From Pseudomonadota bacterium (GTDB lineage Bacteria > Pseudomonadota > Alphaproteobacteria > Sphingomonadales > Sphingomonadaceae), in assembly GCA_021849075.1 (NCBI GenBank), contig JAJZTH010000012.1:26741-90740 (forward strand): 64,000 nt of DNA, given 5' to 3'. Made by a program: the position numbers and the translations under genes. Within the stretch, counting starts at the first letter, position 1; every line of letters starts with the position of its first letter. This document shows, piece after piece, positions 8,809 to 15,189 of the stretch. Below the pieces are notes generated by a model, which saw only the letters and a program-made list of their open reading frames with translations, was not told the origin of the DNA and ran no database searches.

Positions 8809-8816
<8 letters not shown>

Positions 8817-9483
8817 ATTTCAGGCCCATTTCTTCCAGACGCGGCCGCATATTGTAAATGTCGAGGCCCAGCTCGCCAGCGGCAAGCCGCACGCGCTTGG
8901 CTTCTTCGGCGGCTTCGCGGGCCTGCGCTTTTTCCAGCACGGAAGCCGCGTCGGCACGCGGCACGATGCACACGCCATCATCGTCGGCAATGATCACGTC
9001 GCCCGGATTGACCAGCGCATTGGCGCAGATGACGGGGATGTTGACGCTGCCCAGCGTATTCTTGACCGTACCCTGCGCGTGAACGGCTTTCGACCAGACG
9101 GGGAAATTCATCTGCGTCAGATCGCGCACGTCGCGCACGCCCGCGTCGATGATGAGGCCGCGGCAGCCGCGCGCCTGCGCCGATGTCGCGAGCAGATCGC
9201 CAAAATAGCCGTCGGTGCACGGGCTGGTGGGGGCGAGGAGGAGGATATCGCCTTCCTTCAACTGCTCGATCGCGACATGGACCATCCAGTTATCGCCGGG
9301 CGCGGCGGAAATCGTGACGGCGCTGCCGGCTATGCGGGCGCCGATATAGATTGGGCGCATATAGGGGGCGAGCAGGCCGGTGCGGCCCTGTGCTTCATGG
9401 ACCGTGGCGACGCCGCATTTGGCGAGACCGTCAATGACGCAGAGGTCCGCCCTTTCGATATTCTGGACGACGACGTTGGACAT
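8809..9483 (-). CDS. ligK: 4-carboxy-4-hydroxy-2-oxoadipate aldolase (LigK)
   Basis: 224 residues of the RraA/HMG-CHA aldolase fold: '[15 protein letters not shown]' near the N-terminus, '[16 protein letters not shown]' and '[18 protein letters not shown]' with metal- and substrate-binding Asp/Arg residues. It cleaves 4-carboxy-4-hydroxy-2-oxoadipate to pyruvate and oxaloacetate, the last step of the 4,5-cleavage pathway. I start at the ATG at 9483 ([11 protein letters not shown]), with AGAAGGAAC upstream; the track start at 9564 overlaps the regulatory region. First gene of the ligK-U-I operon, divergent from ligR. Confidence 0.93.
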
Positions 9484-9568
9484 GGAACCGTTCCTTCTCC
9501 CAAAGTAGACAGCGAAATGGACACTATGGGGGCGATGCTCAAATCCGAACTGGCGCTGGCCCATAAAA

Positions 9569-9586
9569 TTTTGATAATCATCAAAT
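9569..9586. promoter_or_regulatory. Palindrome abutting the ligR start codon
   Basis: TTTGAT-AATC-ATCAAA at 9570-9585 lies directly against the ligR ATG (9587), in the AT-rich part of the 103-bp ligK-ligR intergenic region. It has the dyad and T-N11-A character of LysR-family operators and could serve autoregulation and control of ligK. Confidence 0.5.
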
Positions 9587-10738
9587 ATGCAAGCCGATCA
9601 GTTCAATATCCGCCACCTTGCCGCCATGGCCGCCATTGTCGATCAGGGAAGCGTCAGCCTGGCGGCGCGCGCGGTCAATCTGACCCAACCGGCGGTGACG
9701 CAGGGCATCGCCAAATTGGAGGCGCAGCTGGGCGTGCGGTTGTTCGACCGGCAGCCCGGCGGCATGGCCGCGCTTGAGGCGGCGCTGCGGCTGAAGCCAC
9801 GCATCGATGTGGCGCTGCGGCTGATCGGCAGCAATCGGGTGACGGCGGCGCAGATGCGCGCATTCGTCGCGCTGGCGCGGGCGGGCAGTTATGCTGCTGC
9901 GGCGGCGGCGACGGGCGTGGCGGAACCGTCTTTGCACCGCGCCGTCGGCGATCTGGGACTGGCGGTGGGCAGCCGGCTGGTGGACCGCCGGGGCAGGGGG
10001 GTGATGCTGACGAAGGCAGGCGTCACCCTGGCGCAGCGATTGCGGTTGGCGCTGGCGGAGTTGCGGCAGGGGCTGGAAGATCTGGCCGACCTGAAGGGGG
10101 AAGAGGGCGGCCGCATATTGGTCGGCGCGATGCCGCTGTCGCGCGCACGATTGCTGCCTGACGCTATCGCGCGGTTTCGGGCGGGTTTTTCGCAGGTCGA
10201 CATAGCGGTGCATGAAGGATCGCATGCTGAACTGTCGGGACCGCTGCGCGAGGGGGAAATCGACATGATGATCGGCGCGTTGCGTGATCCGGCACTGGCG
10301 GCCGACCTGACACAAAAGCCTCTGTTCGAGGATCGGCCGACGATATTGGCGCGGCGCGGCCATGTGCTGGAAAGCGGCTGGGATGCGGACGCATTGCGCC
10401 GCTTTCCATGGATTTTGCCGCCTGAAGGCACCCCGCTGCGGCAATTGTGGCGGATGATGTTTGCCGAACTGGGGGGCGACTTGCCTGCCGTGCCGATCGA
10501 GTGCGGATCGGTGATGACGATCCGGCAACTGCTGGTCGGCGGCGATTATCTGACCTTGTTGTCCCATGATCAGCTGGCGCTGGAACTGGAGGCGGGGCTG
10601 CTGACGGACATTGGCCCCGCGCCGGGTGCGATTAGCCGTACCATCGGCCTGACGACTAGGGCGGACTGGCGGCCGACGCGATTGCAGCAACAGTTCATGG
10701 CGGCCGTAGAGGCATCGGCGCAAAACATCACTTCGTAA
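9587..10738 (+). CDS. ligR: LysR-type regulator of the lig genes with two HTH segments (LigR-like)
   Basis: 383 residues, about 80 more than a typical LysR protein. Two successive winged-HTH segments are visible: residues about 6-62 ('[20 protein letters not shown]...[14 protein letters not shown]') and about 84-145 ('[19 protein letters not shown]...[14 protein letters not shown]...[12 protein letters not shown]'), followed by a linker helix and a LysR co-inducer domain from about 165. It is divergent from ligK and upstream of the ligJABC operon, so it is the likely activator of both. The ATG has no Shine-Dalgarno sequence; a palindrome occupies that position, suggesting a leaderless or autoregulated transcript. 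Confidence 0.8.
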
Positions 10739-10760
10739 TTTCTTATGTCGACATGACGGA

Positions 10761-10788
10761 TTCGATTGGATGCGTTCGATAGGATGCG
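10761..10788. repeat. Tandem 14-bp direct repeat upstream of the DUF1932-ligJABC operon
   Basis: TTCGATTGGATGCG is followed immediately by TTCGATAGGATGCG (13 of 14 identical), 15 nt before the ATG of the next gene. The position suggests a regulatory site or a repeat in the 5' untranslated region. It also creates the spurious upstream ATG (10770) used in the ORF track. Confidence 0.6.
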
Positions 10789-10802
10789 CCATCCCTGACG
10801 CC

Positions 10803-11690
10803 ATGGAGCAGGAAGTTGGTCTGATCGGTTTTGGCGAAGCGGGGGCCACCTTCGCACGGGCGGGGGACTGGACTGATGCGGCCCATGTATTTGATATCAG
10901 CACGGATTGTGAAGGTGCATTGCGCGACGCCATGCTCGCTTCCTATGCTGATGCCGGCGTTCGGCCTGCGCACAGGCTGGGCGATGCCCTGAACGGCATG
11001 CCGCTGATTATATCGCTGGTGACGGCGGATCAGGCGCTGTCGGTCGCCCAAATTGCGGCACAATCGATCGCGCCGGGGGCCATCTTCTGCGACATGAACA
11101 GCGTCGCGCCGCAGACCAAGCAGGCGGCGGCGCAGGCGATCGAGGCGGCGGGCGGACATTATGTCGACGTCGCGGTCATGGCCCCGGTCGATCCCGCGCG
11201 CCTCAACGTGCCGTTGCTGTTGAGCGGAGTGCAGGCGGACGAAGCGGAAACGCGGCTGCGGGCGCTGGGCTTCGGCAAGACCCGCGTCGTCGGTGCGGAC
11301 GTTGGCCGGGCCTCGTCGATCAAGATGATCCGGTCGGTGATGGTCAAGGGGATCGAGGCGTTGACCGCCGAATGCGTGCTGGCGGCGCAGGCGGCCGATG
11401 TGCTGGACGAAGTGCTGACCTCCCTCGACGCGAGCGAGAAGGCCCGGCCCTGGGACGCGCGAGCGGATTATAATCTGGACCGTATGCTGGTGCATGGGCT
11501 GCGCCGCGCCGCCGAGATGGAGGAAGTGGTCAAGACGCTGGAGGGGTTGGGCACCGGGGCGGCGCTGACGCGCGGCACGGTGGCGCGCCAGCAGGCGATC
11601 GGTGCGCTGGGCGTGAAGACGCCGCCCGAAGGGTTGAGCGCAAAGATTGGCGTGATCAGTGTCGATGGCGTTCCCGCCCGGGGCGGGTGA
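10803..11690 (+). CDS. NAD(P)-binding beta-hydroxyacid dehydrogenase-like protein (DUF1932 type)
   Basis: 295 residues from the ATG at 10803 (MEQEVGLIGFGEAGATFA). An N-terminal Rossmann motif GFGEAG, the '6-phosphogluconate/hydroxyisobutyrate' pattern 'FCDMNSVAPQTKQAAA' and 'GGHYVDVAVMAPVDPARLNVPLLLSG', and a helical C-terminal DUF1932-like half with 'SIKMIRSVMVKGIEAL' (catalytic-type Lys). The family reduces or oxidises beta-hydroxyacids, but no reaction is assigned to this member. Its place between ligR and ligJ suggests a side step of protocatechuate or gallate metabolism, perhaps handling a keto or hydroxy tricarboxylate. Not part of the textbook LigABCIUJK route. Confidence 0.75.
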   Translation: MEQEVGLIGFGEAGATFARAGDWTDAAHVFDISTDCEGALRDAMLASYADAGVRPAHRLGDALNGMPLIISLVTADQALSVAQIAAQSIAPGAIFCDMNSVAPQTKQAAAQAIEAAGGHYVDVAVMAPVDPARLNVPLLLSGVQADEAETRLRALGFGKTRVVGADVGRASSIKMIRSVMVKGIEALTAECVLAAQAADVLDEVLTSLDASEKARPWDARADYNLDRMLVHGLRRAAEMEEVVKTLEGLGTGAALTRGTVARQQAIGALGVKTPPEGLSAKIGVISVDGVPARGG

Positions 11691-11727
11691 CGAGGTTTAT
11701 GGGTTTGGCGTCGGGCACCTCCGCCTG

Positions 11728-11753
11728 AGATCCCAGCTTTCGCTGGGATGACG
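11728..11753. repeat. Short palindromic dispersed repeat
   Basis: ATCCCAGCTTTCGCTGGGAT (11730-11749), an 8-bp-stem palindrome flanked by GAG and GACG. This word is familiar as a dispersed intergenic repeat in sphingomonads. Here it sits between the DUF1932-type gene and ligJ and could form an mRNA hairpin. Confidence 0.7.
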
Positions 11754-11796
11754 GAAAGGGGGCGGGGCGGTGGGATAAGGTTGGAGATAGAAGCGG

Positions 11797-12818
11797 ATGA
11801 GCCTGATTATCGATTGCCATGGTCACTATACTGTCCTGCCCAAGGGGCATGACGCTTGGCGCGAGGAGCAGAAGGCGGCTTTCAAGGCCGGTACGTCTTG
11901 TCCGCCCTATCCCGAGATCAGCGACGCGGAAATTCGCGAGACGATCGAGGCGAACCAGTTGCGCTTGATCAAGGAACGCGGCGCCGACCTCACCATCTTT
12001 TCTCCGCGCGCATCGGCGATGGCGCCGCATGTCGGTGACGAAGCGGTCGCGAAGGAATGGGCGATCCGCTGCAACGACCTGATCGCGCGCGTCGTGGCGA
12101 TGTTCCCCGAAACCTTCGTTGGCGTGTGCATGCTGCCCCAATCGCCCAAGGCGGACATGAGCAATTCGATCGCGGAGCTGGAGCGCTGCGTCACCGAACT
12201 GGGCTTCATCGGCTGCAACCTCAATCCCGACCCGGGCGGCGGCCATTTCACCCATCCGCCGCTGACCGACCGTTACTGGTATCCCTTCTATGAGAAGATG
12301 GTCGAACTGGATGTGCCGGCGATGATCCATGTGTCGGGCAGTTGCAACCCGGCGATGCACGCGACCGGCGGCTATTATATCGCAGCCGACACGATCGCCT
12401 TCATGCAGTTGCTGGAAGGCGACCTGTTCAAGGATTTTCCGACCCTGCGTTTCATCATCCCGCATGGCGGCGGCGCAGTGCCCTATCATTGGGGCCGGTA
12501 TCGGGGGCTAGCTGACATGCTGAAGAAACCCGACCTGTCGACGCATCTGATGAACAACATCTTTTTCGACACTTGCGTCTATCACCAGCCGGGCGTCGAC
12601 CTGCTGGCCGACGTGATCGAGAACAAGAATATTCTGTTTGGTTCGGAAATGGTCGGCGCGGTGCGCGGCATCGATCCCACCACCGGCTTCTATTTCGATG
12701 ACACCAAACGCTATGTCGATGCGTTGGACATCAGCGCCGTGGAACGCGCCGCGATTTTCGAGGGCAATGCCCGCCGCGTCTTCCCGCGCCTCGACGCCAA
12801 GTTGAAGGAGAGGGGGCT

Positions 12819-12822
<4 letters not shown>
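11797..12822 (+). CDS. ligJ: 4-oxalomesaconate hydratase (LigJ)
   Basis: 341 residues of the amidohydrolase superfamily. N-terminal 'LIIDCHGHYTVLP' (HxH-type metal motif), central 'LNPDPGGGHFTHPPLTDRYWYP', 'IHVSGSCNPAMHATGGYY' and 'FIIPHGGGAVPYHWGR' with further His residues, and a late 'ILFGSEMVGAV'. LigJ adds water to the tautomerised oxalomesaconate to give 4-carboxy-4-hydroxy-2-oxoadipate, the substrate of LigK. It starts the tight ligJ-A-B block; its stop overlaps the GTG of ligA. Confidence 0.93.
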
Positions 12823-14166
<1,344 letters not shown>

Positions 14167-14173
14167 GTTTGTC

Positions 14174-14230
14174 GAGGCGCGCCTTAGCGCGCGCCTCATC
14201 CCACCCCAAGCCCTCTCCTAAAGGGGAGGG
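14174..14230. repeat. Two hairpin-forming repeats in the ligB-ligC gap
   Basis: GAGGCGCGC-CTTAGC-GCGCGCCTC (14174-14197) is followed by CCCTCTCC-TAAA-GGGGAGGG (14211-14230). They lie inside an apparent operon, so they more likely stabilise or process mRNA between ligB and ligC than terminate it. The second resembles dispersed GC-rich repeats of this group. Confidence 0.6.
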
Positions 14231-14250
14231 GCTACAGTACGGAGTTTCCC

Positions 14251-15189
14251 ATGCGTATTGCCCTGGCTGGCGCTGGCGCCTTTGGCGAAAAGCATCTTGA
14301 TGGCCTCAAGAATATCGATGGCGTGACGGTCACGTCGATCATCGGTCGCGAACTGGACGCGACGAAGAAGGTCGCGGAAAAATATGGCATCGGCCATGTC
14401 ACAACTGACCTGGATGAAACGCTGGCGCGCGATGATGTCGACGCGGTGATCCTGTGCACACCCACCCAGATGCATGCGGCGCAGGCGATCGCCTGCATGA
14501 ATGCTGGCAAGCATGTGGAGGTGGAAATTCCACTGGCGGACAGCTGGAAGGATGCGCAGGCGGTGCTCGCCAAGCAGCAGGAAACCGGCCTGACCTGCAT
14601 GGTCGGCCATACCCGCCGCTTCAATCCGTCGCACCAGTTCGTCCATAACCGCATCAAGGCGGGCGAATTCAACATCCAGCAGATGGATGTGCAGACCTAT
14701 TTCTTCCGTCGCAAGAATATCAATGCGAAGGGCGAGCCGCGGTCCTGGACCGACCATCTGCTGTGGCATCACGCCGCGCACACGGTCGACCTGTTCGCCT
14801 ATCAGGCGGGCAAGATCGTGTCGGCGCACGCCATGCAAGGGCCGATCCATCCGGAACTGGGCATCGCCATGGACATGTCGATCCAGTTGAAGAGCGAGAC
14901 GGACGCGATCTGCACCCTGTCGCTTTCGTTCAATAATGACGGGCCGCTGGGCACTTTCTTCCGCTATATCGGTGACAGTGCAACTTATATTGCGCGCTAC
15001 GACGATCTGGTGAACGGCAAGGAAGAGCCGATCGACCTTAGCGGCGTCGCCGTCTCCAACAATGGCATCGAATTGCAGGACCGCGAATTCATCAGCGCTA
15101 TCCGCGAAGGCCGCGATCCCAACAGCAGCGTCGCCAAGGTGTTCGATTGCTACCGTGTACTGGGCGAACTGGAAACACAGCTGGGCTGA
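14251..15189 (+). CDS. ligC: 4-carboxy-2-hydroxymuconate-6-semialdehyde dehydrogenase (LigC)
   Basis: 312 residues of the Gfo/Idh/MocA family: N-terminal nucleotide-binding 'IALAGAGAFGEKHLDGL', 'ILCTPTQMHAAQAIACMNAGKHV' and 'VEIPLADSW', then a beta-sheet C-terminal half with 'LWHHAAHTVDLF'. LigC oxidises the hemiacetal form of the ring-cleavage product with NADP to 2-pyrone-4,6-dicarboxylate, which LigI hydrolyses. Last gene of the plus-strand lig operon, followed by a strong terminator. Confidence 0.94.
   Translation: MRIALAGAGAFGEKHLDGLKNIDGVTVTSIIGRELDATKKVAEKYGIGHVTTDLDETLARDDVDAVILCTPTQMHAAQAIACMNAGKHVEVEIPLADSWKDAQAVLAKQQETGLTCMVGHTRRFNPSHQFVHNRIKAGEFNIQQMDVQTYFFRRKNINAKGEPRSWTDHLLWHHAAHTVDLFAYQAGKIVSAHAMQGPIHPELGIAMDMSIQLKSETDAICTLSLSFNNDGPLGTFFRYIGDSATYIARYDDLVNGKEEPIDLSGVAVSNNGIELQDREFISAIREGRDPNSSVAKVFDCYRVLGELETQLG

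Follow-up and report, generated by a model that had tools for sequence, protein, structure and literature searches.

Few families of bacterial regulators are as abundant as the LysR-type proteins, which are usually assumed to carry one helix-turn-helix (HTH) domain per chain. One member of this family, LigR of N. aromaticivorans, has been placed by DAP-seq, EMSA and footprints at the ligK and DUF-gene promoters, and the footprints of the ligand-free protein cover about 30 bp, in which the box A motif described below is contained (PMC12710314). As far as this source reports, the LigR proteins of SYK-6 and N. aromaticivorans are the only ones known to be activated by protocatechuate (PCA) or gallate, and for the SYK-6 protein it cites work in which either ligand extends the footprint downstream (PMC12710314). 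For GalR of Pseudomonas putida KT2440, the effector has been identified as 4-oxalomesaconate (PMC9942251). LigR itself is already known; the tandem HTH that we describe here is visible to any domain search, yet it is not discussed in PMC12710314, the main text of which mentions neither an HTH nor a domain for LigR. In the open-access literature that was searched, we found no prior description of LysR proteins with tandem HTHs.

In the window, that is, the whole stretch of 64,000 nucleotides that was analysed, ligI, ligU and ligK are encoded on the minus strand and are followed on the plus strand by the regulator gene and by a DUF1932-like gene, ligJ, ligA, ligB and ligC (Table 1). The order ligIUK / ligR / DUF-ligJABC is kept in most of 80 named related loci, and due to its location in this conserved locus the tandem-HTH regulator is, by sequence comparison, LigR. 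The TT-N-GC-N6-TTAT box of LigR is also found at both flanking promoters, although each of the window boxes departs from GC at one position (TC and GT). Locus and motif bear out an earlier note on this DNA, which had described the protein as a LigR-like regulator. In another locus of the same kind, G176, which codes for a tandem-HTH LigR (two HTHs according to Pfam) with 51% identity to the window protein, the sites TTAGCAGCAGCTTAT and TTCGCCTGACCTTAT, one on each side of ligR, match the published box exactly. We think it probable that the window protein, as a LysR-type activator, switches on the protocatechuate/gallate 4,5-cleavage operons to either side of its gene. Most relatives have no match to codons 1-27 of the ligK open reading frame as listed (9484-9564, minus strand). 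The start of ligK is likely the ATG at about 9483, which would give a ligK-ligR gap of 103 bp; this gap contains box A and box B.

Table 1. Features of the ligR locus (positions in the window)
Feature	Position	Strand	Evidence
ligK (CHA aldolase), divergent target operon with ligU and ligI	8809..9564	-	locus comparison; homologue annotated aldolase/fldZ
box B, ligK promoter, TTCGGATTTG	9540..9549	-	phylogenetic footprint
box A, ligK promoter, TTATCAAAATTTTAT, T-N11-A type	9563..9577	-	footprint, 70/70 loci; published motif (PMC12710314)
ligR, tandem-HTH LysR-type regulator, 383 aa	9587..10738	+	ORF, Pfam, AF2, locus comparison
HTH1, winged HTH, residues 8-62; recognition helix 34-48 with Q34-P-A-x-T38-Q39	9608..9772	+	Pfam, AF2, orthologues
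short helix between HTH1 and HTH2, residues 64-80	9776..9826	+	AF2
HTH2, winged HTH, residues 86-145; recognition helix 113-127 with H117-R118	9842..10021	+	Pfam, AF2, orthologues
linker (dimerisation-type) helix, residues 143-169	10013..10093	+	AF2
LysR_substrate effector-binding domain, residues 171-376	10097..10714	+	Pfam, 110.9 bits
box A, DUF-ligJABC promoter, TTCGTAATTTCTTAT, includes ligR stop codon	10732..10746	+	65/68 loci
box B, DUF-ligJABC promoter, ATTCGATTGG, tandem repeat copy one	10760..10769	+	phylogenetic footprint
downstream target operon: DUF1932-like gene, ligJ, ligA, ligB, ligC	10770..15189	+	ORFs, locus comparison

The translated ligR product matches the Pfam profile HTH_1 (PF00126, cut-off 26.6 bits) twice and LysR_substrate once, all above the gathering scores. 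HTH1 scored 67.5 bits when residues 1-83 were scanned alone, and HTH2, at residues about 88-145 in the Pfam match, scored 53 bits when residues 84-175 were scanned alone. Two complete winged HTHs are also predicted in an AlphaFold2 (AF2) monomer model based on 29 orthologues (pLDDT 93.3, pTM 0.88), with helices 8-20, 23-29 and 34-48 and a wing at 53-62 in HTH1, and helices 87-99, 102-109 and 113-127 and a wing at 132-141 in HTH2, which are followed by the short helix and the linker helix, respectively. Profile search and model thus agree with the two tandem winged-HTH segments of the earlier note, whose boundaries, 6-62 and 84-145, were correct within a few residues; the four HTH units per dimer that it had counted follow from two LysR HTHs per chain. 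The opposite outcome that it had considered, a single HTH with residues 84-145 forming part of the linker or the effector domain, is not what the profile search finds. In NCBIfam and PDB searches, residues 84-383 by themselves align as a complete ordinary LysR protein, which argues that residues 84-145 are neither effector domain nor linker, that HTH2 is part of the standard LysR chain, and that HTH1 and the short helix were added ahead of it. Judged by its sequence traits, LigR is a variant of the LysR family and not a non-member: it has an N-terminal LysR HTH, a LysR_substrate domain after a linker helix, and a T-N11-A operator with a divergent target operon, box A being located inside the ligK-ligR gap, whereas the usual single HTH and length of about 300 residues are replaced by two HTHs and 383 residues. 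Among the matches listed by Foldseek, the nearest solved folds are full-length LysR chains with a single HTH only. An AraC/XylS-type double-HTH regulator was also considered and rejected, as the Pfam search gave no AraC match and hence no AraC-type HTH pair in LigR.

The host genome (3.67 Mb, 66 contigs) contains 33 HTH_1 matches, and ligR is the only gene with two of them. Similarly, 13 genomes of the class contain 146 HTH_1 matches, and only LigR and G678:C122, a lig-linked protein of 433 amino acids that is itself a member of the LigR clade, have two in one frame. The tandem HTH in LigR is thus more than chance. When the effector domain, which is blind to the HTHs, was used as query, all matches of at least 87 bits were tandem proteins and all matches of 82 bits or less had a single HTH. 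In trees of the effector domain, from which the distant LysR proteins of the host genome were left out due to their long branches, the tandem proteins were separated from the seven nearest single-HTH proteins with a branch support of 100/99, and of 99/99 once GalR-type proteins were included. Two N-terminal winged HTHs were present in every LigR/GalR clade member that was examined, and Pfam confirmed them in the proteins of P. oryzihabitans, Pantoea, Burkholderia and G176. These comparisons indicate that the tandem HTH marks one LysR clade (LigR/GalR), which spans Alpha-, Beta- and Gammaproteobacteria. For 18 of the 20 distant tandem proteins, one or more homologues of ligK, ligU, ligI, ligJ, ligB or ligC are encoded nearby, and matches over nearly the whole query were found in plasmid records of Rhizobium, Agrobacterium, Azospirillum, Burkholderia, Variovorax, Vibrio, Pseudomonas and Pantoea. 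As only the top candidates per genome were scored in the genome searches, the prevalence of tandem LigR proteins is a lower bound.

Some members of this clade are encoded away from lig genes. The plasmid genes L221:5986-7236 (Rhizobium pRL12) and L222:5878-7254 (Agrobacterium pAt), whose LigR-like products match nearly the whole query, adjoin amidohydrolase/transporter genes and not annotated lig clusters. Full-length tandem-HTH LigR-like proteins with 52-54% identity are encoded in L093, L112 and L116 (Sphingomonas ursincola, Blastomonas) with no lig genes within 5 kb, and G066 has one LigR-like copy without nearby lig genes in addition to a lig-linked one. It is possible that these copies are paralogues with another target.

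Both HTHs are kept in all 28 other aligned Sphingomonadales orthologues, and dN/dS values (NG86) among close relatives in Sphingobium and Sphingomonas are 0.18 for HTH1, 0.24 for HTH2 and 0.22 for the effector domain; purifying selection acts on both HTHs. The recognition helices are marked by residues that are invariant in 29 orthologues, namely Q34, A36, T38, Q39 and E45 in HTH1 and H117 and R118 in HTH2. Across the wider LigR branch, the recognition pair is T-Q in 26 of 31 HTH1s and H/Y-R in 27 of 31 HTH2s, and we take these pairs to occupy the position of the DNA-contacting residues S33-R34 in BenM/CbnR. Neither T-Q nor H-R is present among the 28 other HTHs read in the host genome. GalR-type proteins have the pairs T-R and S-A in place of T-Q and H-R, and HTH2 is degenerate in some clade members (14.5-42 bits); in L145, L146 and L148 it is down to 14.5-30 bits while HTH1 holds 58-84 bits. 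Due to these differences, HTH1 appears to be the more constant DNA reader. In the genes L145:1383-2757 and L146:1368-2772 (both minus strand), the recognition pairs are SH and WH and HTH2 scores 29.7 and 14.5 bits, respectively; going by their sequences, these two are natural cases of HTH2 decay. A different irregularity is seen in L048:5001-5117 (Sphingobium sp. Ant17), where the LigR match does not begin until residue 40 and the sequence before it is one base out of frame; this frameshift in HTH1 would reflect a sequencing error or else damage to the gene copy.

HTH1 is closer than HTH2 to single-domain relatives (37% versus 30% identity). The two HTHs are 29% identical within one protein and likewise 29% between different proteins, and since the likeness within a protein is no higher than that between proteins, a recent internal duplication was rejected and the event behind the tandem HTH is old. 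A tree of single HTHs (60 columns) did not resolve whether HTH1 originated by duplication within the protein or by fusion.

In an alignment of 70 ligK-ligR gaps and 68 gaps downstream of ligR, both gaps have one architecture, consisting of box A (15 bp), a spacer of 13-14 bp and box B (about 10 bp); outside the two boxes there is little conservation. Box A is the published LigR motif, and box B of the ligK promoter is probably the ABS/-35 region. The operator of the downstream operon starts within the last ligR codons, a layout that is retained in the closest relatives. Box A is also significant in most of the distant LigR-branch members, although a significant site was missing in two of those searched and was found on one side only in some distant tandem members. 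As box A was the search target in these distant members and box B was not used in the choice of sites, box B provides the only independent signal, and it is conserved, with an information content of 5.15 bits versus a shuffled maximum of 1.64. The full unit of box A, gap and box B is about 39 bp long, which is the size of an ordinary LysR RBS and ABS pair. On this comparison, the doubled HTHs did not lengthen the operator. The earlier note had suggested that LigR could read composite sites, namely a palindrome at 9570 and a tandem repeat at 10761. The palindrome (9570-9585) and the repeat copies (10761 and 10775) do exist in the window, but only part of each is conserved: box A overlaps the left half of the palindrome only, the outer arm is lost beyond the closest Sphingobium relatives, and the first repeat copy, which is box B, is conserved while the second is not. 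Save for these overlaps, both were rejected as conserved sites, and each promoter instead has its own two-box operator.

We propose that both HTHs of LigR contact DNA. The HTH1 pair of a dimer would most likely be chiefly responsible for base-specific contacts in the box A dyad, and the HTH2 pair, located on the canonical linker (dimer) helix, would add weaker flanking contacts, which steady ligand-free LigR on an operator of ordinary size. An effector, either an aromatic acid or 4-oxalomesaconate, would shift the complex to box B at the -35 region or extend it that far, and the engagement of box B would switch transcription on, as with ordinary LysR proteins. On this view, the second HTH would make binding at one operator stronger or more precise and would not join two promoters. 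We favour this explanation as a whole, with reasonable but by no means full confidence. The ligand-dependent extension of the SYK-6 footprint, as cited, and the effector of GalR fit the proposed extension to box B, whereas the degenerate HTH2 of some members and the different recognition residues of GalR-type proteins would speak against the roles assigned to the two HTHs.

Three other explanations for the second HTH can be considered, which we list in falling likelihood. DNA binding might fall to one HTH, with the other serving as a structural spacer or for dimerisation, which we regard as a possible but rather doubtful reading. One HTH pair could be structural because the operator is not longer than a normal LysR operator, and HTH2 would be the likelier candidate since it is more divergent, HTH1 being nearer to single-domain relatives, and has decayed in L145, L146 and L148. 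Yet HTH2 retains a complete winged HTH in the AF2 model, its potentially base-facing pair H117-R118 is invariant, and the purifying selection on it is comparable to that on the remaining protein. It is unlikely that a single dimer with four HTHs covers the whole operator, with one pair on box A and the other on box B, and so replaces the LysR tetramer, which ordinary LysR proteins need to engage the regulatory and activation sites. Two conserved boxes at a fixed distance, at both promoters and across the LigR branch, and the different conserved residues of the two recognition helices would suit such a dimer; on the other hand, box B resembles a single asymmetric half-site over the -35 region, and the ligand-free footprint is only about 30 bp and, in the work cited for SYK-6, is extended by ligand, which fits an ordinary dimer/tetramer movement. 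The related idea that LigR/GalR proteins form a distinct LysR class, in which one four-HTH dimer with two specificities could engage both sites, is likewise rather unlikely.

The explanation put forward in the earlier note, that four HTHs per dimer could allow LigR to bridge the ligK and ligJABC promoters (taken here as DNA looping), is very improbable. Two LigR operators do flank ligR at a distance of about 1.17 kb in nearly all Sphingomonadales loci compared, but each promoter holds a complete operator of its own with box A and box B, the palindrome arm and the second repeat copy are not conserved, and some distant tandem members have a significant site on one side only; nothing in the sequences asks for looping. 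Finally, although 383 residues are unusual for a LysR protein, chance or an artefact, be it a misplaced start codon, fusion with a fragment of a neighbouring gene or faulty assembly, can be dismissed as a source of the N-terminal HTH, as the same architecture recurs at over 100 loci in independently assembled genomes and across Alpha-, Beta- and Gammaproteobacteria, and HTH1 has the lowest dN/dS in the protein.

Taken together, LigR is predicted to control the breakdown of lignin-derived aromatic acids with two DNA-reading domains in place of the usual one. A two-HTH clade among regulators relevant for lignin valorisation offers a test case, supplied by nature, for the way in which operator and activation mechanism depend on how many DNA-reading domains a protein has and on what these recognise. 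Biosensors and promoter designs based on LigR or GalR rest on a protein whose DNA contacts are assumed and have not been mapped, and mutational or chimera work on these proteins must take both HTHs into account.

Among the known systems, LigR of N. aromaticivorans (SARO_RS14285) and of Sphingobium SYK-6 are the closest: both occupy the same slot between ligK-(ligU)-ligI and DUF/ligJABC, with the same TT-N-GC-N6-TTAT box at both promoters (PMC12710314). FldY from the fld clusters of Sphingobium, a name taken from annotation alone, is an annotated orthologue of 383 amino acids with 80% identity and the same gene order. PcaQ (TIGR02424), TsaR and CbnR align over their full length with HTH2, linker and effector domain of LigR, but differ from it in having one HTH and about 300 amino acids; an identity of LigR as PcaQ was rejected, as it scores 207.7 bits with the TIGR02424 model, below the equivalog cut-off of 303.8. 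For GalR of P. putida KT2440 (PMC9942251), the equivalent gal cluster regulator that we compared is that of P. oryzihabitans. This protein of 412 amino acids, encoded divergently from galB, shares the tandem-HTH architecture of the window LigR and differs from it in both recognition pairs, and it groups with LigR and not with the single-HTH relatives.
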